From an uncultured Bacteroidales bacterium (GTDB lineage: Bacteria > Bacteroidota > Bacteroidia > Bacteroidales > FEN-979): 42,560 bases of DNA. Location: contig CAJAUM010000069.1 of assembly GCA_903945175.1 (NCBI GenBank), forward strand, positions 1-42,560, written 5' to 3'. The notes below the pieces were generated by a model. The model did not search any database. It saw only the letters and a program-made list of their open reading frames with translations, and had not been told where the DNA came from. The position numbers and the translations under genes are program-made. Positions within the stretch are counted from its first letter, which is position 1, and each line of letters starts with the position of its first letter. Below, piece after piece: positions 11,001 through 42,560 of the stretch.

Positions 11001-11876
11001 GTGAAGGAACGCTTTCTTGCATATATAGAATTTGAAAAACGGTACTCTCCAAACACCGTAACTGCCTACCGGATCGACCTGAATCAATTCTTCGATTACC
11101 TTCAATCACAATATGATACGGATGATATCCGGGAGGTGGATCATCTCATGATACGTTCATGGCTGGTCTCCCTGATGGAGCATGAGATCATGGCACGATC
11201 TGTTAACAGGAAGCTTACCACGCTGAAGTCCTTTTACAAGTTTATGATTCGGGAGGGGGAATTGGTCGAAAACCCCATGCGAAAGGTTACTCCGCCGAAG
11301 ACTGCGAAAAGTTTACCGGTTTTTGTGGAAAAGGAGAAGATGGAGATGTTGTTTGACAAAATTGAATTCGCTGAAGGATATCCGGGATTCCGTGATAAAA
11401 CAATTCTGGAAATGTTTTATCGCACAGGCATGCGGTTGTCTGAACTGGTAAACCTGAAAGAAACTGACCTTGATTTTCATTATGATACCATAAAGGTCAT
11501 CGGGAAACGTAATAAAGAACGATTGATTCCGTTCAGTAAGAAATTTGAAACTGTTTTAAAATCATATCTTGAATGTAAAAAGAGTACCTTCGGTGAGGTC
11601 AATGATCTGTTTCTGACTGACAAGGGAGGGAGGGCTTATTCAAAAATGATTTATCAGATTGTGACAAGGCAATTGGGCGTTGTGACTACATTGGAGAAGA
11701 AAAGCCCACATGTATTGCGGCACACCTTTGCCACACACATGCTGAATAACGGAGCTGAACTGAATTCAGTAAAAGAGCTGCTGGGTCATGCCAATCTTTC
11801 GGCCACCCAGGTTTATACCCATAATACCATCGAAAAATTGAAGAGAATCTACAAACAAGCCCATCCAAAGGCGTAA
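11001..11876 (+). CDS. xerC: Tyrosine recombinase XerC-type
   Basis: The start is GTG at 11001, giving 291 residues, the usual Xer length. The N-terminal SAM-like DNA-binding domain (about 1-85) begins FLAYIEFEKRYSPNTVTAYR. The catalytic set is complete: Arg145 (TGMRLSEL), Lys169, His237 and Arg240 (HVLRHTFATHML), His263 (LLGHANL) and Tyr272 (VYTH). Xer recombinases resolve chromosome dimers at dif. The fixed place between rpsU and hpf is a housekeeping context, unlike the mobile integrase at 35247. XerC against XerD cannot be separated with certainty; some Bacteroidota annotations use either. Confidence 0.92.
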   Translation: MKERFLAYIEFEKRYSPNTVTAYRIDLNQFFDYLQSQYDTDDIREVDHLMIRSWLVSLMEHEIMARSVNRKLTTLKSFYKFMIREGELVENPMRKVTPPKTAKSLPVFVEKEKMEMLFDKIEFAEGYPGFRDKTILEMFYRTGMRLSELVNLKETDLDFHYDTIKVIGKRNKERLIPFSKKFETVLKSYLECKKSTFGEVNDLFLTDKGGRAYSKMIYQIVTRQLGVVTTLEKKSPHVLRHTFATHMLNNGAELNSVKELLGHANLSATQVYTHNTIEKLKRIYKQAHPKA

Positions 11877-11890
11877 AAAAGGAGGTCTGA

Positions 11891-12190
11891 ATGAATGTTA
11901 AAATTAACGCTGTACATTTCAAGGCTGACAAGAAGTTGGAAGCTTTTATCAATGAGAAACTTGAAAAATTGCACACCTTTTTTGAAGGTGTTCTTAGCAG
12001 TGAAGTCATATTAAAGACAGAGAATACCGAAACGCGGGAGAATAAAATTGCAGAGGTCAGGCTTTTGGTAAAGGGATATGACCTCTTTGCCAAGAAAGAG
12101 GCCACAACGTTTGAAGCTGCAATTGACCTTGCTACAGAGGCGTTGAGGAAGCAACTTGTGAAGCATAAAGAAAAAGTAAGGGGAAGCTAA
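11891..12190 (+). CDS. hpf: Ribosome hibernation-promoting factor, short form
   Basis: The 99-residue product has the HPF/YfiA beta-alpha-beta fold pattern: MNVKINAVHFKADKKLEAFI, then EVILKTENTE, and the end TEALRKQLVKHKEK. It binds the decoding centre of idle ribosomes in stationary phase. The length fits the short form without the dimerisation tail. It starts 14 bases after xerC, next to a GGAGGT stretch, and is followed by a perfect hairpin that probably ends the rpsU-xerC-hpf transcript. Confidence 0.93.
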   Translation: MNVKINAVHFKADKKLEAFINEKLEKLHTFFEGVLSSEVILKTENTETRENKIAEVRLLVKGYDLFAKKEATTFEAAIDLATEALRKQLVKHKEKVRGS

Positions 12191-12199
12191 GGGGAGATA

Positions 12200-12255
12200 T
12201 TTCCTAAAATGAAGCAGGCAACCATTTTTTTGGTTGCCTGCTTCATTTTAGGAAA
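12200..12255. terminator. Perfect 25-bp hairpin after hpf
   Basis: Bases 12200-12224 and 12231-12255 are exact reverse complements, with a loop of six T. The stem starts with TTTCCTAAAATG and is symmetric, so it can fold on either strand. A U tail on the plus strand is weak, but the stem is long and it stands between hpf and the tRNA promoter. Confidence 0.7.
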
Positions 12256-12339
12256 CGCTTGATTGGCGCTTGTTTCGGAGTTCGGTACAAATATTGTTTA
12301 AAAAAAATCACGTTTGAGGCAGTTAATTTCATAAAACCC

Positions 12340-12370
12340 TTGTTTCGTATCCAAATTGTTTCTAATTTTG
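12340..12370 (+). promoter_or_regulatory. Promoter of the tRNA-tuf operon
   Basis: TTG at 12340-12342, 20 bases of spacer and TAATTTTG at 12363-12370 fit the Bacteroidota consensus. The predicted start lies about 20 bases before tRNA-Thr, so the four tRNAs and perhaps tuf would be expressed from it. Confidence 0.75.
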
Positions 12371-12396
12371 CAGTCCTTTTTGAAAAAGGAAAACGT

Positions 12397-12469
12397 GCCG
12401 ATGTAGCTCAGCTGGTAGAGCAGCTGATTTGTAATCAGCTGGTCGGCGGTTCGAATCCGTCCATCGGCT
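12397..12469 (+). tRNA. tRNA-Thr (TGT)
   Basis: Acceptor GCCGATG/CATCGGC with discriminator T, D-arm GCTCAGCTGGTAGAGC, anticodon stem GCTGA/TCAGC with loop TTTGTAA, and T-arm GGTTCGAATCC. Anticodon TGT reads ACA. CCA is not encoded. It is the first of four tRNAs before tuf. Confidence 0.95.
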
Positions 12470-34913: not shown

Positions 34914-34987
34914 GGATCGGTAGTTCAGCTGGTTAGAATGCCGCCCTGTCACGGCGGAGGTCGCGGGTTCGAGTCCCGTCCGGTCCG
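34914..34987 (+). tRNA. tRNA-Asp (GTC), integration site of the accessory element
   Basis: Acceptor GGATCGG/CCGGTCC (one G.T pair) with discriminator G, D-arm GTTCAGCTGGTTAGAAT, anticodon stem CCGCC/GGCGG with loop CTGTCAC, anticodon GTC, and T-arm GGGTTCGAGTCCC. CCA is not encoded. The integrase gene begins 260 bases downstream, so the 3' end is the likely attachment core. Confidence 0.95.
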
Positions 34988-35011
34988 CAAAAAACAAATC
35001 AAAATACAACA

Positions 35012-35089: not shown

Positions 35090-35232
35090 AGGTGCATCAT
35101 TCGGTGCATGTAGTTTTGTTTGAAAAATATGCACCGAATCACATACAAATTGTTAATAATTAATCATTTATGTGTGTTTTTTTATTTGGAAAATCCATTC
35201 ATTTTTCGTAATTTTATAACTAATCGGTGCAT
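35090..35232. repeat. GGTGCAT repeats near the integrase (possible arm sites)
   Basis: GGTGCAT occurs at 35091-35097, 35103-35109, 35226-35232 and inverted at 35130-35136. Two of them form a perfect 11-base inverted repeat (ATTCGGTGCAT at 35099-35109, its complement at 35129-35139). Between tRNA and integrase this spacing suggests arm-type integrase or excisionase binding sites, or an operator for the integrase promoter. Confidence 0.55.
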
Positions 35233-35246
35233 AAAACCTTTAACAC

Positions 35247-36500
35247 ATGGAAAATTCTATATCTGTACTCTTTTACCTCCGCAAGAGTATTATTCGTAAA
35301 AAAACCGAGGCTCCAATTTATATGAGGATAACTGTTAATGGGAGCAGAGTTGATCTCTCAACTCACCAGTTCACGTTAGATGACAAGTGGGATGTTAAAC
35401 ATGGCCAAGTGAAAGGGCCGAAATCCGAAACCCACACTGTCAATAATACCCTGGATAATCTTAGATCGAAGGTCAACAAGATTTTTACGCAGTTAGAAAC
35501 GATGGGGAAGCCTATAACTGCTGAAATCATCAGGAATACCTTGGAAGGCAAGTCAATAAACCGGCGCTCATTGGTTGAAGCATTCAAATTGTACAATGAG
35601 CAACTTAAGCCCAAGGTAGGTCATGGTTATGCAAAAGCCACCCTGGTAAAGTATCAGGTCACCTGTAATAAGGTGGAAGATTTCATAAGGTTTCAGTATA
35701 ACCGTTCAGACGTTTTTCTCGATGAACTGGATTACCAGTTTACTGTCAATTTTGAGCTTTACTTAAAAACTCATGATTTTAATATTCAAAACACCGTATC
35801 CAAGCATGTTACCCTCCTGAAGAAGATTATTAATTATTGCCTGGCAAACAACTGGCTTGAAAAAAATCCCTTCATCAACTTCAAATGTCCATATAAGGAC
35901 CCGGAACGCCATTTCCTGACCAAAGATGAGCTTGAAACTCTGCAAAGTAAAGCTATGATGATTAACAGGCTGGCAGTAGTCCGGGATATGTATGTCTTTT
36001 CATGTTACACCGGTATCCCATTTGCAGATATGGAAAACCTTATCCCTTCCGATGTCAGCATTGGTATCGATGGTGACAAGTGGATTATTTTTAACCGGAT
36101 AAAAAATGGCAGTCGTTCCCCTGTTCCCTTGTTGCCGGTTCCCCTTAGTATAATAGAGAAATACAAAGATTATCCTGTTAATTCCAGCAAGGGCAAACTA
36201 TTGCCGATGTATTCCAACCAGCGGGTAAATGGTTACTTGAAGGAAATTGCTACGATTTGCGGCATCGAAAAGACTTTGACGTTCCATACAGCCCGCCACA
36301 CATTTGCCACCACTGTAACGCTTACAAACGGTGTTCCCATCGAAACCGTGAGCAAGATGCTTGGCCACACCTCAATTAAAACTACCCAAATATATAGCAA
36401 GGTGGTAGACGTGAAAATCAGCCATGATATGAAGGTTCTGAAGGAGAAAATAGCCGCCGTGAAAGAGGTAACACCAATGGCTAAAGTGGTTAATCAATAA
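35247..36500 (+). CDS. Tyrosine integrase, IntDOT-like (Bacteroidota type)
   Basis: The 417-residue product has an N-terminal arm-binding domain (about 1-90), a SAM-like core-binding domain (about 108-210) and a catalytic domain. His347 and Arg350 (HTARHTFATT), His374 (LGHTSIKTT) and Tyr383 (IYSKV) are present. The first catalytic Arg is replaced by Pro258 in CYTGIPFADM, a feature known from IntDOT of CTnDOT, where this position is also not Arg. It catalyses integration and excision at tRNA-Asp. The start and length are usual. Confidence 0.9.
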   Translation: MENSISVLFYLRKSIIRKKTEAPIYMRITVNGSRVDLSTHQFTLDDKWDVKHGQVKGPKSETHTVNNTLDNLRSKVNKIFTQLETMGKPITAEIIRNTLEGKSINRRSLVEAFKLYNEQLKPKVGHGYAKATLVKYQVTCNKVEDFIRFQYNRSDVFLDELDYQFTVNFELYLKTHDFNIQNTVSKHVTLLKKIINYCLANNWLEKNPFINFKCPYKDPERHFLTKDELETLQSKAMMINRLAVVRDMYVFSCYTGIPFADMENLIPSDVSIGIDGDKWIIFNRIKNGSRSPVPLLPVPLSIIEKYKDYPVNSSKGKLLPMYSNQRVNGYLKEIATICGIEKTLTFHTARHTFATTVTLTNGVPIETVSKMLGHTSIKTTQIYSKVVDVKISHDMKVLKEKIAAVKEVTPMAKVVNQ

Positions 36501-36724: not shown

Positions 36725-36994
36725 ATGAATGTTGAATTAGTTACGAAATCTGATCTCGAAAATCTCCGTGATTCTCTTATTAAAGAAATGAGATCCATTG
36801 TCGGTTTGAAAGCCGATACAAAGAAATATTTGAAGTCCTCCGAAGTCCGGGATATTCTTGGCTGTTCCCCCGGCACACTCCAACACCTCCGTGTAAACGG
36901 AACACTTGAATACACCAAAATTGGTGGTACAATTTACTATTCTTCCGATTCTGTAAATGCTGTTTTTGATAGAAACAAGCGTAACGTAGCATAA
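36725..36994 (+). CDS. Small helix-turn-helix DNA-binding protein
   Basis: The 89-residue product has a coiled N-terminal helix (about 1-28) and a MerR/excisionase-type winged HTH: KKYLKSSEVRDILGCSPGTL (HTH), then LRVNGTLEYTKIGGTIYYSS (wing). Such proteins act as excisionases or as regulators in Bacteroidota mobile elements. It stands 20 bases before the polymerase-like gene and is probably co-transcribed, so it may control it. The exact role cannot be told. Confidence 0.85.
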   Translation: MNVELVTKSDLENLRDSLIKEMRSIVGLKADTKKYLKSSEVRDILGCSPGTLQHLRVNGTLEYTKIGGTIYYSSDSVNAVFDRNKRNVA

Positions 36995-37014: not shown

Positions 37015-38421
37015 ATGAAACAATTTATTCCAGCTAACCTGGACATAGATAAGTTATTGGCTTCTAATCCGCCCTCATTTAAGTATCATAGAGATAATTT
37101 TGTCCATATACTACACCTGCTTACTGAGATTCCAGCTCGCAACAAAGACCTCCGCCGCGAGGATGGCTTCGTTCCTATCCATGCGCATACGCTGCAAAAG
37201 CAGATTCGGGATTATAATTTGTACCTGGAATATTTGGTCAGTACCGGGGTACTTGATATTGACAGCCAGTATATCCCCGGAATAAAATCACGAGAGTACC
37301 GGTTTACTGAACAGTACCAGACTGTAAATAAGGTTGAGCAGATTGACAAGTTCACTTTGACCAAGAATATCTCCAAAGGTTTTGAAAGAAATTGGTGCAC
37401 GGAGAAACAGTATCCATTCTTGTCACGGTTTTTTAATGATGATCTGAAGATTGACCATTCCGGTGCTACTGATTATTTGTTTCAGCTTTATAAGAAGAAT
37501 TGCTCGGCAGGAGTGGCCAACTCAATCCGGAAATATAATTACAGCATGCTCAGCATCGAAAAGTTAAAAAACCATGAGTTCTTCTTTCATGTTGACAAGA
37601 CGGTTAATCGGCTTCATACAAATCTTACCGGGTGCAAAAGTCAAATCCGAAATTTTATAACCTACTCTGGAATGGATTTGGTTTCAATCGATTTGAAAAA
37701 TTCACAACCGTGGATAAGTACTATCCTCTTAGACCCAAAATTTTACGAAAATTGGGGTCGCCCCCCTTATTCTTCATCTTTTATCTCCAATAACTCCTCT
37801 TCACTCTTCAAATATAATAATTACACTCCCTTTTTATTTTCTTCTTCTTCTTCTTCTTCACATAATAATTCTCCTATTTCTCTCATTATGATAGTAAAAA
37901 ATGAGCTAAGCCTTGATACCATTGAGAAAGATGATGTGAAACTGTATAAATCAAAAGTGCTGGATGGAACCCTGTATGATTACTTCTCACAAGAGATTTT
38001 TAACAGGCACGGGATGAAATTTAAAGATCGGAAAGCAGTGAAAGCAGTTATTTTTACCGTCCTATTTTCTGACAACAGGTTTATCGGCCAGAAGGAAGCC
38101 TACTCCAAAAGATTGTTCAGGGAAATCTTCCCGAATGTGTATGAGATTTTTAAAATTATAAAAAGGTCCAATGCCAGTGATCTTCCGGTTCTTTTACAAA
38201 GAATGGAATCATCCCTGATCCTTAACCATATTGCATACCGGATCAGTAAAGAACAATCAGGGTTGCCAATTTTTACAATACATGATTCGGTGGTATTCCC
38301 TGTTGGCTACGAGAGTTATGTCACTCAGGTAATAAAAGAAGAATCAATGAGATGCCTTGGTTCAAATCCGACTCTTGCAGTTGAGCCTTGGTCTCCGTCA
38401 AGTTTAAAACTAACCGCATAG
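37015..38421 (+). CDS. Family A polymerase-like protein with winged-helix-like N-terminus
   Basis: I do not recognise a named family. Residues about 20-100 (LQKQIRDYNLYLEYLVSTGV, then KSREYRFTEQY) look like a winged helix. The C-terminal part has family A polymerase motifs in order: RLHT at 199-202; IRNF then the motif A segment VSIDLKNSQP with Asp226; an O-helix with Arg339, Lys343, Phe347 and Phe351, matching Taq Arg659, Lys663, Phe667, Tyr671 without a gap; FPNVYEIF; Gln395; and motif C IFTIHDSVVF with Asp424. Both catalytic Asp are kept. The motif A Glu steric gate is Gln231, and motif C is HDS, as in phage RNA polymerases, not HDE. A Ser/Asn-rich insert (about 252-287) separates motifs A and B. 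No exonuclease domain is present, but one follows as the next gene. Confidence 0.7.
   Translation: MKQFIPANLDIDKLLASNPPSFKYHRDNFVHILHLLTEIPARNKDLRREDGFVPIHAHTLQKQIRDYNLYLEYLVSTGVLDIDSQYIPGIKSREYRFTEQYQTVNKVEQIDKFTLTKNISKGFERNWCTEKQYPFLSRFFNDDLKIDHSGATDYLFQLYKKNCSAGVANSIRKYNYSMLSIEKLKNHEFFFHVDKTVNRLHTNLTGCKSQIRNFITYSGMDLVSIDLKNSQPWISTILLDPKFYENWGRPPYSSSFISNNSSSLFKYNNYTPFLFSSSSSSSHNNSPISLIMIVKNELSLDTIEKDDVKLYKSKVLDGTLYDYFSQEIFNRHGMKFKDRKAVKAVIFTVLFSDNRFIGQKEAYSKRLFREIFPNVYEIFKIIKRSNASDLPVLLQRMESSLILNHIAYRISKEQSGLPIFTIHDSVVFPVGYESYVTQVIKEESMRCLGSNPTLAVEPWSPSSLKLTA
37839..37859 (+). repeat. TTC microsatellite inside the polymerase-like gene
   Basis: Seven TTC units in a row encode most of a run of seven Ser (residues 276-282) in the low-complexity insert. 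Because the unit is three bases, slippage would change the length of the Ser run but not the frame. Confidence 0.85.
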
Positions 38422-38441
38422 TAATATTCAAAAACAAGCAT

Positions 38442-39209
38442 ATGAATTTACCAAATCTTATTCTCAACCGCCCCCTGGTCTTTTTTGATACGGAAACCAC
38501 AGGGGTGAATATTACCAAAGACCGGATAATTGAACTGTGTGCTATCAAGGTTTACCCGGACAAGTCACAGGATATGTTTCTGCAAAGGTTCAATCCTGGA
38601 ATACCTATACCCCCGGAAGCAACAGCTATACATGGTATCACTGATGAAATGGTAACCAATGCACCACGCTTTGTAGCAAAGGTCAATGAAATAGTTGATT
38701 TCTTTTCCGGGTGTGATCTTGCAGGTTACAATCTGATTAGGTTTGATATACCATTACTTGTAGAAGAACTCCTTAGAAACGGTGTTACCACGATCCCTTT
38801 CGATGGAGCCAGGTTTATTGACTGCTTGGCTATATGGCGTAAAATGGAACCAAGGACACTATCTGATGCCGTAAAATATTATACTGGTGAAGTTCATAAC
38901 GATGCTCATGCAGCAAAAGGTGATGTTGAAGCAACAATGAAGGTTTTGAGTGGCCAGCTGGCAAAGTATCCTGATTTGCTACCTGACCTTACCACACTCC
39001 ACGATTTAGTTCAGGAGGGTAACACAGTTATTGATTATGCCGGAAAATTTGCCAGGGATTCTGATGGAGATATAATTTTTACATTCAGTAATAACATTGG
39101 CAAGAAGGTTAAAGTCAACCTTGGAATGTTGGATTGGATGCTCACACGGGATTTTACAGCTCAGACAAAGCATATTGCCATGCAGATATTGGATGGGGAG
39201 TTGAGATAG
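38442..39209 (+). CDS. DnaQ-like 3'-5' exonuclease
   Basis: I start at the ATG at 38442 (MNLPNLILNRPLVFFDTETT), 20 bases after the previous stop; a longer frame would overlap it. The 255-residue product has the DEDDh motifs: ExoI FDTETTG (Asp16, Glu18), ExoII GYNLIRFDIPLL, and ExoIII with His and Asp in HNDAHAAKGDVEAT. It should remove nucleotides from 3' ends. The C-terminal region (about 185-255) ends with a domain of unknown role. As it follows a polymerase-like gene with no exonuclease domain, it may proofread for it. Confidence 0.88.
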   Translation: MNLPNLILNRPLVFFDTETTGVNITKDRIIELCAIKVYPDKSQDMFLQRFNPGIPIPPEATAIHGITDEMVTNAPRFVAKVNEIVDFFSGCDLAGYNLIRFDIPLLVEELLRNGVTTIPFDGARFIDCLAIWRKMEPRTLSDAVKYYTGEVHNDAHAAKGDVEATMKVLSGQLAKYPDLLPDLTTLHDLVQEGNTVIDYAGKFARDSDGDIIFTFSNNIGKKVKVNLGMLDWMLTRDFTAQTKHIAMQILDGELR

Positions 39210-39322: not shown

Positions 39323-40216
39323 ATGACAAATCAAAACATGGAAATTACGACAGACATATATCTTGGTGACAGTAAAAAGGAACTTAAAAAACTTCTTGAC
39401 AATTCTGTTGACCTCATTGTAACTTCCCCACCTTACGCAGACCAACGTAAAAGCACATATGGAGGCATTCATCCGGATAAATATGTTGAATGGTTTTTGC
39501 CAATATCCGAGCAACTATTTAGAGTTCTTAAACCTACAGGGACTTTTGTTCTAAACATAAAAGAAAAAGTTGTTGAAGGTGAACGGAGCACATATGTAAT
39601 GGGTCTTATCATTGCAATGCGTAAACAAGGATGGCTATGGACAGAGGAGTTTATATGGCACAAGAAAAATTCTTATCCTGGAAAGTGGCCTAACCGTTTT
39701 CGTGATTCTTGGGAAAGACTATTACAATTCAATAAGGATAAGCACTTCAATATGTATCAAGAGGAAGTGATGGTTCCAATGGGTGAATGGGCTAAAACAC
39801 GTTTAAAGAAACTTTCTGACACAGACAAGGTTCGAGATAACTCAAAAGTTGGAAGCGGTTTTGGTAAAAATATTTCAAATTGGATAGACAGAGACAAAGC
39901 ATATCCAACAAATGTTTTGCATTTGGCAACAGAGTGCAATAATAAAAATCATAGTGCGGCATTCCCTGAAGAATTGCCAGAATGGTTTATTAAACTATTT
40001 ACTAAAGAAAATGACATTGTCCTTGATCCCTTTATGGGTTCGGGAACTACCTTATCTGTTGCCAGTAGAATGAAAAGAAATTCAATTGGAATTGAAATAG
40101 TTCCTGAGTACTATCAAATGGTAAAAAATCAATTAAACCCGGTAGAATTATATCTATTGGAACCTGGAGCAAAATATGAAAAAACTGAACCTAAAAGACG
40201 TATTGCAATACGTTGA
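39323..40216 (+). CDS. Type II DNA methyltransferase (N4-cytosine or N6-adenine)
   Basis: The 297-residue product has the catalytic motif TSPPY at residues 34-38, near the N-terminus, and the AdoMet motif DPFMGSGTT at 235-243 near the C-terminus. That order, motif IV before motif I, is the beta class. SPPY favours N4-cytosine, but N6-adenine is possible. It would protect the host at the site of the partner nuclease. The Met at 39338 is an alternative start. The next gene overlaps it by 41 bases. The target sequence cannot be told. Confidence 0.9.
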   Translation: MTNQNMEITTDIYLGDSKKELKKLLDNSVDLIVTSPPYADQRKSTYGGIHPDKYVEWFLPISEQLFRVLKPTGTFVLNIKEKVVEGERSTYVMGLIIAMRKQGWLWTEEFIWHKKNSYPGKWPNRFRDSWERLLQFNKDKHFNMYQEEVMVPMGEWAKTRLKKLSDTDKVRDNSKVGSGFGKNISNWIDRDKAYPTNVLHLATECNNKNHSAAFPEELPEWFIKLFTKENDIVLDPFMGSGTTLSVASRMKRNSIGIEIVPEYYQMVKNQLNPVELYLLEPGAKYEKTEPKRRIAIR

Positions 40217-40964
40217 GAAAAATATCGGGAAATTTCACGAAAAGCGTATTCAAAGCCTTGACGATTTAAAACTTATAAAAGTTCTTAAACGCAAAAACCC
40301 ATATTTATTTAAAGCCAAATATGTATTGACTGCTGACCAAATTGTTCGTGGCATTGTGGATGCTCACATATCTTCAAATGAGGAAACTATTTTTGGCGAC
40401 TGGTTGGAAGGGCTTGCAATTTTTATAAATGGCAAAGTATATGGTGGTCGTAAATCAGGCATTACAAATATTGATCTTGAATTTGACAACAACGGAATAC
40501 GAAACGTTGTAACAATAAAGTCAGGCCCAAATTGGGGCAATAGTTCTCAAATTAAAAAAATGGTTGCGGACTTTAAAACAGCAAAAAGGACTTTAAGAAC
40601 GAGCAATTCACTACTTAATATTGTAGCTGTCAACGGCTGCTGTTATGGCAGAGACAATAAATCCGACAAAGGTGATTATTACAAATATTGTGGGCAAAAT
40701 TTTTGGACATTTATTTCTGGCGATCCCAACCTTTATACCGAATTAATTGAGCCACTTGGGCATAAAGCGAAAGAACGAAATGATGATTTTATGAAATCTT
40801 ATTCGCAAATGATAAATAAATTCACCAAAGAATTTACGACTGACTTTTGCGATAAAAACGGAGCAATTGACTGGGACAAACTAATAAAACTTAACTCAGC
40901 AATTGTAGAACCCAAGTCGAATAAACTAAAAGAACGAAAGCCTAAAGCAACTACTACAACTTAA
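40176..40964 (+). CDS. Type II restriction endonuclease, PmeII-like
   Basis: The 262-residue product overlaps the methyltransferase gene by 41 bases, which ties the two together. It resembles the PmeII family by KYVLTADQIVRG, EETIFGDWLEGLAIF and GGRKSGITNIDLEF. The likely PD-(D/E)XK-type core is Asp100 followed by VTIKSG (Lys115), with Glu79-81 region as another acidic site. It cuts unmethylated DNA, so the pair may defend the element's host or keep the element in the population. It is AT-rich like the methyltransferase. Confidence 0.8.
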   Translation: MKKLNLKDVLQYVEKNIGKFHEKRIQSLDDLKLIKVLKRKNPYLFKAKYVLTADQIVRGIVDAHISSNEETIFGDWLEGLAIFINGKVYGGRKSGITNIDLEFDNNGIRNVVTIKSGPNWGNSSQIKKMVADFKTAKRTLRTSNSLLNIVAVNGCCYGRDNKSDKGDYYKYCGQNFWTFISGDPNLYTELIEPLGHKAKERNDDFMKSYSQMINKFTKEFTTDFCDKNGAIDWDKLIKLNSAIVEPKSNKLKERKPKATTTT

Positions 40965-41335: not shown

Positions 41336-41410
41336 GTCGGGTAACCAAAGCGGGTCGCCCCGCTCCAGTCCCCTAAGAACCGTACTTGCGACTTTCACCG
41401 CATACGGCTC
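41336..41410 (-). mobile_element. Group II intron 3' end (domains V and VI)
   Basis: On the minus strand, 41410-41377 is a 34-base domain V: GAGCCGTATGCGG, GAAA-type loop, then GTACGGTTC, with the GAGC start and bulged pairing. After a short linker, 41364-41349 forms a GC hairpin (AGCGGG/CCCGCT) as domain VI, and the sequence ends in ACCCGAC near 41336, the usual AY 3' splice end. The upstream part of the intron is cut by the IS21-type element. Confidence 0.8.
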
Positions 41411-41433
41411 AAGCTCTCTAAATGCAAAATCAA

Positions 41434-41483: not shown

Positions 41484-42560
41484 TGTATATTCCGGCGCAT
41501 AGTGACCCCTCATTCCGGAGCAAGGTGACCCCCCATTCCGGCCATAGTGACCCCCCTCTTTTTTGAGTTGTGCCTATTTTCTCTCTGTATTTTATAAGAG
41601 ATAGAATATGAGCGTATTAATCATGTGTCGTACTACGATTCTCAGACGCACACAGGGTAATGCCATTCCGGCATAGTGACCCCTGCGTTATGATTCCTTA
41701 CGCTGCCATTCCGGCATAGTGACCCCCTGAGGACAATTTGGGTTTATCTGATGGATTTGTATCTTCAGACAAACTCAAAAGACAAACTCGATGGCTGGAA
41801 AACGGATACCTATGGGCTCATTAAAGCAAATATTATTATTACGGAACCTGGGGACAGGTAAAAAAGCAATCGCACGACAAACCGGTGTGTCGAAGGTCGC
41901 AATCAACGAATATCTGGATGTGATCACACGCAAAGGGTATGTTTTACAAGATCTTATCCAACTGGAGGAGCCGGTATTAGAGGGTCTTTTTTTCAATGCA
42001 AAGGAGATCGAAGAAGTTGCGAGGTATAACCTGTTAAAAGAGCTATTTCCCTCATTTGCAGAGGACTTGCTGGAAGTTGGGGTCAACCGTATGTTCTTAT
42101 GGCAGGAGTATAAACTAACGCACCCCGAGGGGTATGGTTACTCTCAGTTTTGTTATCATTATCAACAGTGGGCTACTGCAAATAAAACAACCCTGCATAT
42201 TGAACATAGGACTGGAGATAAAGTTTACATTGACTTTGCAGGCAAAAAAATGTCTATTGTTTTCCCCCTGACCGGCGAAGTGAGGGAGGTGGAAACGTTT
42301 GTGGCAACGCTTGGCTTTAGCGGGCTTACCTACGTAGAGTTTTGTGAAAGCCAGACCAAGGAAGATTTTATCCATTGCGTTGAAAACGCCCTTCATTACT
42401 TTGGCGGTGTTCCGCTTGCCTGTGTTCCGGATAATCTCAAGTCTGGAGTTACCAAAGCATGCCGGTACTCACCGCATCTTGCCAAGGACTTTGAGGATAT
42501 GGCCAGCCATTATAACCTTGCCATTGTCCCCGCCCGCAGCAGAAAACCCAGAGACAAAGC
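41484..42560 (+). mobile_element. IS21-family insertion sequence, left part
   Basis: The element begins near TGTATATTCCGG at 41484 and carries an istA transposase. Its end region holds five copies of a motif close to CATTCCGGCATAGTGACCCC (41488-41509, 41511-41532, 41534-41555, 41664-41683, 41707-41727), as IS21 ends hold multiple transposase-binding repeats. The right end and istB lie beyond the window. It interrupts a group II intron. Confidence 0.85.
41791..42560 (+). CDS. istA: IS21-family transposase IstA, 5' part
   Basis: The frame opens at ATG 41791 after an in-frame stop at 41749 and runs off the window after 256 codons. An N-terminal HTH (about residues 22-42, AIARQTGVSKVAINEYL), then the RNase H-like DDE core with Asp148 (VYIDFAGKKM) and Asp214 (VPDNLKSGV) are visible; the Glu lies beyond. 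IstA inserts the element with the ATPase IstB, which should follow. The frame is intact, so the element may be active. Confidence 0.92.
   Translation, partial: MAGKRIPMGSLKQILLLRNLGTGKKAIARQTGVSKVAINEYLDVITRKGYVLQDLIQLEEPVLEGLFFNAKEIEEVARYNLLKELFPSFAEDLLEVGVNRMFLWQEYKLTHPEGYGYSQFCYHYQQWATANKTTLHIEHRTGDKVYIDFAGKKMSIVFPLTGEVREVETFVATLGFSGLTYVEFCESQTKEDFIHCVENALHYFGGVPLACVPDNLKSGVTKACRYSPHLAKDFEDMASHYNLAIVPARSRKPRDK

Follow-up and report, generated by a model that had tools for sequence, protein, structure and literature searches.

The window analysed here, a stretch of 42,560 nucleotides from an uncultured Bacteroidales bacterium (assembly GCA_903945175.1, contig CAJAUM010000069.1), encodes a 468 amino acid (aa) protein on a putative integrative element. 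Sequence and predicted structure assign this protein to the divPolA2 superfamily, so named here after a phage family, as a minimal polymerase of the family A fold that carries no exonuclease domain of its own. Its palm is of the family A type and appears intact, with the expected motifs in order, two conserved catalytic aspartates and a predicted fold whose closest solved match is the Klenow fragment.

Motifs and their conservation

The initial annotation of this DNA listed a series of family A polymerase motifs, and the 468-codon open reading frame (ORF) contains them in the order given. The counts below refer to 136 representative sequences.

37015-38421 (+): divergent polymerase with a predicted family A fold, 468 aa (ORF, alignments, AlphaFold model and Foldseek)
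37015-37350 (+): N-terminal domain, residues 1-112, winged-helix-like (model pLDDT 90.3; fold matches at E >= 0.08)
37609-37650 (+): RLHT...R212 segment, residues 199-212 (R199 in 136/136, R212 in 127/136)
37678-37713 (+): motif A, LVSIDLKNSQPW, with putative catalytic D226 (136/136) and Q231 (135/136)
38029-38067 (+): O-helix, RKAVKAVIFTVLF, with invariant K343 (alignment; helix 339-351 in the model)
38275-38289 (+): motif C, TIHDS, with putative catalytic D424 (135/136) and S425 (133/136)

The RLHT...R212 segment is likely to be the counterpart of the TGRLSS...R motif of Pol I, and Q231 would occupy the steric-gate position judging from a motif A free of gaps. An expression describing the ordered motifs, which was composed after the polymerase family had been seen, matches the window ORF and 41 of the 136 representatives and is found in none of 100,000 shuffles and in none of 2,639 neighbouring ORFs.

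The polymerase family was found in 185 of the 188 loci searched, the window counted (the exceptions are L045, L140 and L142), and 176 of the 185 best matches were kept by length and reduced to the 136 representatives at 90% identity. Many of their loci were collected by patterns over motifs A and C, which biases the motif columns upward. One protein set used 115 of 116 proteins and the N-terminal fragment set 94 of 114, and L031 and three doubly fetched records were excluded from one bacterial set. Among 21 relatives gathered without motif patterns, the window protein included, M1, R199, D226, P232, K343, F368, P373, D424 and S425 are invariant, so that both catalytic aspartates are kept in 21/21. 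In the larger set R199, D226 and K343 are each present in all 136 representatives, D424 and Q231 in 135 and H423 and S425 in 133; position 351, the last aromatic residue of the O-helix, is Phe in 120, Tyr in 14 and Asn in two. Three of the four residues that had been singled out for alignment, Asp226, Lys343 and Asp424, are thus conserved, and the fourth, Arg339, varies (95 R, 34 K, 7 other). Leaving out the sequence of phage KLEP7 changes little: the counts for 135 sequences are R199 135, D226 135, K343 135, D424 134, Q231 135, H423 132 and S425 132, with 94 R and 34 K at position 339 and 119 F and 14 Y at position 351.

Sequence databases have little to say about the protein. It has no match in Pfam or NCBIfam at E <= 1, PF00476 and the RNA polymerase domains included, and no exonuclease domain appears among the Pfam matches at the same threshold. 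The best PHROG is phrog_4756, which is of unknown function (E 2.5e-4). Searches of PDB sequences returned a methylase as the sole match of the single protein (E 0.064) and an Mcm5 chain as the sole match of the profile (E 0.34).

Predicted structure

The AlphaFold model has a mean pLDDT of 89.9 and a pTM of 0.89 and is poor at a serine-rich loop within residues 253-285. When compared to the PDB with Foldseek, the top match is Klenow (E 1.2e-5, prob 1.00) and a mitochondrial RNA polymerase also appears (E 9.2e-5), while among viral models the best match reaches a TM-score of 0.81 by target (E 1e-25) and is followed by one annotated as putative DNA polymerase I (E 1.2e-19). The top matches are palm-containing polymerases, in agreement with the family A-like character first proposed; a model lacking a palm, or variation at Asp226 or Asp424, had been named as evidence against it. 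Both aspartates are conserved in the homologues, and the matches of the model point to a palm, at TM-scores of 0.19-0.40 to solved structures. The Klenow counterparts are taken to be R668, D705, E710, R754, K758, Y766 and H881-D882-E883, an assignment made by motif order.

The N-terminus had been described as winged-helix-like. Its secondary structure in the model fits and makes this plausible; a fold search with the domain found no significant match (best E 0.08), many of the matches being winged-helix proteins. The short helical segment that follows the domain may act as a thumb.

Relation to divPolA2 and other polymerases

The closest described relatives are found in phages. A profile of 135 representatives aligned with hhalign to a profile of eight proteins from Rheinheimera, Vibrio and Pseudoalteromonas phages, with no row shared between the two, gives a probability of 98.0%, an E-value of 1.5e-13 and a score of 108.3, as opposed to scores of 12.5-17.7 for six unrelated neighbour families. 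With KLEP7 in both profiles the link has a probability of 98.3% and an E-value of 1.5e-14. The alignment covers no more than model positions 224-449, from the palm onwards. The eight phage proteins correspond to divPolA2 (Virol J 2024, PMC11348598), whose model protein comes from MG592441.1, a record that is also among the matches of the KLEP7 search. The authors describe divPolA2 as an extra protein with an active-looking palm and no exonuclease, whose N-terminal domain they could not classify and which sometimes occurs as two or three paralogues per genome; they consider that it may be an RNA polymerase or a DNA polymerase for repair (PMC11348598). The initial annotation knew of similar proteins only as unnamed products of Bacteroidota elements; relatives do occur there, and divPolA2 adds a published one from phages.

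The two branches resemble each other in their small size, retained palm residues and missing exonuclease domain, and in phages both come in addition to a regular DNA polymerase. They differ at the putative sugar gate, where the residue five positions after the motif A aspartate is Gln in 135/135 members from elements and huge phages and is H in six, E in two and W in one of nine divPolA2 sequences. Motif C differs too, its third residue being S in 132/135 of the former and S in five, E in two and A in two of the latter. Two of the nine divPolA2 sequences have both the Glu at motif A +5 and E after the motif C aspartate, and the sugar gate therefore varies within the superfamily. Bacterial integrative elements and one plasmid carry members of the element and huge-phage branch, whereas divPolA2 comes from Rheinheimera barbaviruses and vibriophages, and the N-terminal domain looks winged-helix-like here, whereas that of divPolA2 is presented as lacking detectable similarity (PMC11348598).

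In a tree of 144 sequences over 207 columns the nine divPolA2 proteins group together, while neither the bacterial nor the phage-contig members form a clade (base support 0.42); the nearest neighbours of the window protein are those of three Chitinophaga loci (support 0.90). The Vibrio phage ORF eugene_75, which does not align and was part of an earlier ten-row profile, and the KLEP7 duplicate were excluded from this alignment and tree. Isolates of the Vibrio phage ICP1 (L265 and L270) carry two different divPolA2-type genes at the same place, one of them formerly known as GP100. Directly 3' of the divPolA2-type gene of two further Vibrio phages (L266 and L268) lies a gene for a putative homing or HNH endonuclease, and one of these two records has three places in the KLEP7 search.

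In the literature found, the branch from bacterial elements and huge phages is undescribed. A 2026 survey distinguishes the bacterial family A groups PolA1, PolA2 (APEX), PolA3 and PolA1-like, which share the family, and the parts of it that describe these groups portray none as a small exonuclease-free protein of Bacteroidota elements (PMC12926913). The family A passages of a review on jumbo phages hold nothing alike (PMC7824862).

The window protein shares with Pol I and Klenow the order of the motifs, the pair of catalytic aspartates, the O-helix lysine and the overall predicted fold. Pol I has an exonuclease domain, a steric-gate Glu and HDE in motif C, whereas the window protein is 468 aa long without an exonuclease domain, has no steric-gate Glu, reads HDS in motif C and gives no PF00476 match. 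HDS is also the motif C of T7 RNA polymerase, and there is some fold similarity to T7-like and mitochondrial single-subunit RNA polymerases; the window protein is roughly half as long as the three phage RNA polymerases compared (816-883 aa) and has no Pfam RNA polymerase match. Profile comparison with known polymerases yields scores of 27.2 for DNA polymerases, 30.0 for RNA polymerases and 30.0 for two small phage PolA proteins, all at a probability below 10%, and 11.6-17.7 for six unrelated neighbour families, a signal too faint to classify the protein by itself. Without KLEP7 these become 26.5 for DNA and 30.2 for RNA polymerases (both below 5%), 31.9 for the small phage PolA proteins (14.1%) and 12.5-17.7 for unrelated families.

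Distribution and genomic neighbourhoods

Relatives are present in 13 of 395 genomes of the phylum when the single protein is used, its own genome counted, and in 20 of 395 with a 21-sequence profile. A relative is encoded by 72 of the 99 stretches that matched the pattern in named genomes, nearly all of them Bacteroidota by title; the outliers are a Rhizobium metagenome-assembled genome (L086), possibly mis-binned, and two records called only bacterium. Viral contigs gave no match in a scan with the single protein, and three alignment-based scans found the family in 125 of 160 stretches (80 kept), in one of 116 and in 14 of 117. Seven phage records were matched, six of them uncultured phages of 595-735 kb and the seventh KLEP7, whose own protein matches 290 phage records, chiefly from Vibrio (146) and Rheinheimera (115), some records holding two or three places. 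A single plasmid, from Hymenobacter, was matched; it has neither a PF00476 nor a PF00136 match.

The 86 bacterial loci, a count that includes three records fetched twice, contain integrase-like genes in 48 cases, DUF3871 in 25 and Sak4-like genes in 23. The name Sak4 rests on phrog_124 (E 1.1e-6) and AAA_24. In L082, L091, L094, L097 and L120, from Chryseobacterium and others, DUF3871 and the Sak4-like ATPase follow each other on the strand opposite the polymerase gene and an integrase lies on the other side of it; the Pfam name DUF3871 gives no function.

In five of up to 99 loci of the phage collection a small polymerase gene of the PF00476 type, encoding 430-460 aa, lies directly 3' of the relative and overlaps it, so that two unlike family A polymerases are paired.

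L026, 9149-10438: tandem PF00476-type gene
L144 and L146 (near-identical), 11182-12468: tandem PF00476-type genes
L145, 11167-12447: tandem PF00476-type gene
L227, 9928-11214: tandem PF00476-type gene

The proteins encoded around the relatives in huge phages are mostly unknown, with matches to a Gp23 fragment in 10 of 34 and a weak resemblance to S-AdoMet lyase in two of 34 (E <= 0.01). A conserved 179-aa protein is encoded downstream of the polymerase gene in such loci, as in L156 (11172-11708), and a 69-aa piece resembling part of the capsid protein Gp23 lies upstream, as in L197 (5453-5659).

The integrative element

The features of the window that belong to the element or adjoin it are as follows.

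34914-34988 (+): tRNA-Asp(gtc), putative integration target (ARAGORN; Rfam RF00005)
34966-34989 (+): attL core, the 3' end of tRNA-Asp (pattern search; one-mismatch repeat at G000:C34:1301-1324, minus strand)
35101-35231: three TCGGTGCA boxes (35101 +, 35130 -, 35224 +), possible arm sites of the integrase
35247-36500 (+): tyrosine integrase, 417 aa (PF17293, PF13102, PF00589)
36725-36994 (+): small HTH_17 protein of the excisionase/regulator type, 89 aa (PF12728, E 1.6e-8; phrog_668, phrog_66)
38442-39209 (+): stand-alone DnaQ-like 3'-5' exonuclease, 255 aa from the first ATG (PF00929, E 7.2e-26; phrog_192, E 1.2e-47)
39323-40216 (+): N6/N4 DNA methyltransferase, probable cargo (PF01555, E 1.2e-46; PADLOC MTase_II)
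40176-40964 (+): EcoO109I-type type II restriction endonuclease, probable cargo (PF14511, E 1.2e-92; no PADLOC match)
41336-41412 (-): group II intron, 3' end (RF00029, 63 bits), between the restriction-modification (R-M) genes and IS21
41791-42558: transposase ORF of the IS21 family, running off the contig end

The integrase, HTH_17 protein, polymerase, exonuclease, methyltransferase and endonuclease genes all lie on one strand in that order, and only 20 bp separate the stop codon of the polymerase gene from the start of the exonuclease gene. The exonuclease, which entered the family searches from 38439, three bases upstream of its ATG, matches a PHROG (phrog_192) labelled 'DNA polymerase exonuclease subunit' and carries DTET, YNLIRFD and HAAKGD, which we take to be the motifs of a DEDDh-type exonuclease. 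The host assembly has its own PolA.

The polymerase gene is placed on a tRNA-Asp-targeted integrative element, whose attachment is supported by sequence though not conclusively. The candidate attR on contig C34 (1301-1324, minus strand) differs by one mismatch from the tRNA-Asp 3' end, no tRNA gene was found on C34, and a terminator-like hairpin beyond the repeat resembles by eye the hairpin after tRNA-Asp in the relative L277. The right end of the element is probably on C34 and may belong to either copy. The TCGGTGCA boxes number four in the window where 1.17 are expected (three of 100 shuffles reach four), and two are found inside the right end, at 1376-1395 of L239 near attR, where 0.04 are expected (none of 200 shuffles reaches two). 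In loci of same-genus relatives the tRNA-Asp 3' end is present in eight of nine and followed by further sequence in seven, L283 being without it and L276 stopping there; none of the seven sequences past tRNA-Asp resembles the start of the element by eye. A 401-aa ORF beyond the C34 repeat has no tblastn match in the nine same-genus loci, and an empty site is not demonstrated. A promoter scan was at chance (11 found, 10.4 expected). The element had been called small at the outset: the integrase beside tRNA-Asp and the candidate right end on another contig bear out an integrative element, and the contig ends before its full size can be read. The IS21 ORF at the contig end may have interrupted assembly of the element.

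A second copy of the polymerase-exonuclease pair is found on contig C2 of the same assembly (L031, 1-2950). The polymerase is represented there by its C-terminal 189 aa, 97% identical, and downstream of the exonuclease gene come a small HTH-like ORF, then genes for a methyltransferase (PADLOC MTase_II) and for an ATPase (PADLOC PDC-M26A) that we take to be McrB-like. As the assembly has 155 contigs and an estimated contamination of 1.86%, C2 may stem from another strain. The DNA similarity of the two copies is 91.5% over 37852-39208 of the window and stops at the exonuclease stop codon. The dN/dS ratio between them is 0.064 for the polymerase (187 codons) and 0.143 for the exonuclease (255 codons); both genes are under purifying selection and are therefore maintained as working proteins while the cargo varies. 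The methyltransferase and endonuclease of the window are probable cargo, the right end of the element lying outside the contig. Elsewhere L072 has an integrase, an HTH protein and the polymerase followed by a C5 methyltransferase, MzaB and MzaC, and L084 an integrase, two small ORFs and the polymerase followed by type I R-M genes. Nine of ten cargo proteins selected from four elements have a PADLOC match at E <= 1e-5, the tenth being the EcoO109I-type enzyme detected by Pfam.

Possible roles of the polymerase

It is proposed, with roughly an even chance of being correct, that the protein is a primer-using DNA polymerase which the integrative element encodes for its own DNA. After excision of the element by the integrase and the HTH protein, the enzyme would be recruited to the element's DNA through its N-terminal domain and would prolong the 3' end at a nick or of an annealed strand. 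D226 and D424 would bind the two metals, K343 would hold the incoming triphosphate, and proofreading would fall to the stand-alone exonuclease. Annealed ends could be provided in other elements by the Sak4-like ATPase whose gene lies near the polymerase. What we infer here is DNA as the product, the use of a primer, the recruitment of the enzyme, the partnership with the exonuclease and a role in element replication or gap filling. DNA is favoured as the product because a proofreading-type exonuclease is adjacent, Pol I enzymes are the best fold matches and Sak4-like genes occur in 23 of the 86 bacterial loci, and the small PF00476 gene that overlaps the relative in five phage loci places the family in a setting of DNA synthesis. 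The proposal also draws on the conserved palm residues, on the return of the polymerase-exonuclease pair on C2 under purifying selection, on the integrase-like and DUF3871 genes of the bacterial loci and on the host having its own PolA. Several observations weigh against this proposal. The steric-gate Glu of family A is replaced by Gln (Q231 in 135/136), the O-helix Tyr is mostly Phe (120/136), motif C reads HDS rather than HDE, and the TM-scores to solved polymerases are low (0.19-0.40 among the best 50 Foldseek rows). The exonuclease gene was found by phmmer (E <= 1e-4) in just two of the 86 bacterial loci, both from this assembly, in a search that can miss distant DnaQ-like proteins and beside a Pfam listing of neighbours that covers 25 of 83 families, and the exonuclease was rejected as a general partner of the family on this count. 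Another DNA polymerase is encoded in 11 of the 11 phage records tested (PF00476 in three, PF00136 in eight), and the complete Hymenobacter plasmid has an annotated replication initiation protein as well as ParA, for which reason plasmid replication initiator was rejected as a general role.

With Gln in place of the steric-gate Glu and HDS as motif C, the choice between DNA and RNA is unsettled. Both substitutions had been pointed out in the initial annotation and hold across the family (Q231 135/136, S425 133/136); it had left this choice and the need for a primer open, and they are still so after profile and fold comparison. The protein could belong to a new lineage of single-subunit RNA polymerases or primases in which the N-terminal domain reads a promoter or origin of the element and the RNA serves transcription or priming. 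This is possible but doubtful. The HDS motif shared with T7 RNA polymerase, the steric-gate Gln and the Foldseek match to mitochondrial RNA polymerase (E 9.2e-5) would fit, as would the other DNA polymerase in all 11 phage records. The PF00476 gene directly 3' in five loci fits a priming partner no less than a second DNA polymerase, which raises this reading slightly. On the other hand the top structural matches are DNA polymerases and a proofreading-type exonuclease adjoins the gene in the window. T7 RNA polymerase has a discriminating Tyr, and the site to which it would map holds Phe in 120 and Tyr in 14 of the 136 representatives. Profiles do not separate the options, RNA polymerases scoring 30.2 and DNA polymerases 26.5, both below 5%. 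The authors of divPolA2 list an RNA polymerase as one of their options (PMC11348598). A fuller version, in which the branch is a new family-A-fold RNA polymerase or primase that reads promoters or origins through its own winged-helix domain, starts synthesis for a partner PolA and forms the core engine of Bacteroidota elements carrying exchangeable anti-phage systems, is a shade more doubtful.

A DNA polymerase for repair, lesion bypass or gap filling, which would guard mobile DNA from damage or host nucleases and not replicate the element, is unlikely. Its small size without an exonuclease domain and the Sak4-like genes in 23/86 bacterial loci agree with such a role, as does an accessory pattern in which the gene has two to three places in some phage records beside another DNA polymerase in 11/11; two or three paralogues are likewise mentioned where divPolA2 is described (PMC11348598). 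The exonuclease of the window element points instead to accurate synthesis, and the partly annotated neighbours show no consistent link to repair genes. Some Abi reverse transcriptases make non-templated DNA, and the R-M, McrB-like, Mza and type I R-M genes that adjoin the polymerase in four elements could suggest a polymerase-derived defence effector producing such DNA. It is highly improbable, as the polymerase and exonuclease stay constant while the cargo changes and relatives are carried by phages themselves.

Significance

The family A fold spans DNA and RNA polymerases, and a compact branch with altered residues at the putative sugar gate lets the choice between the two be probed. The family marks mobile elements of Bacteroidota that differ in their anti-phage systems, and it ties these elements to divPolA2, a family of unknown function, and to huge phages.
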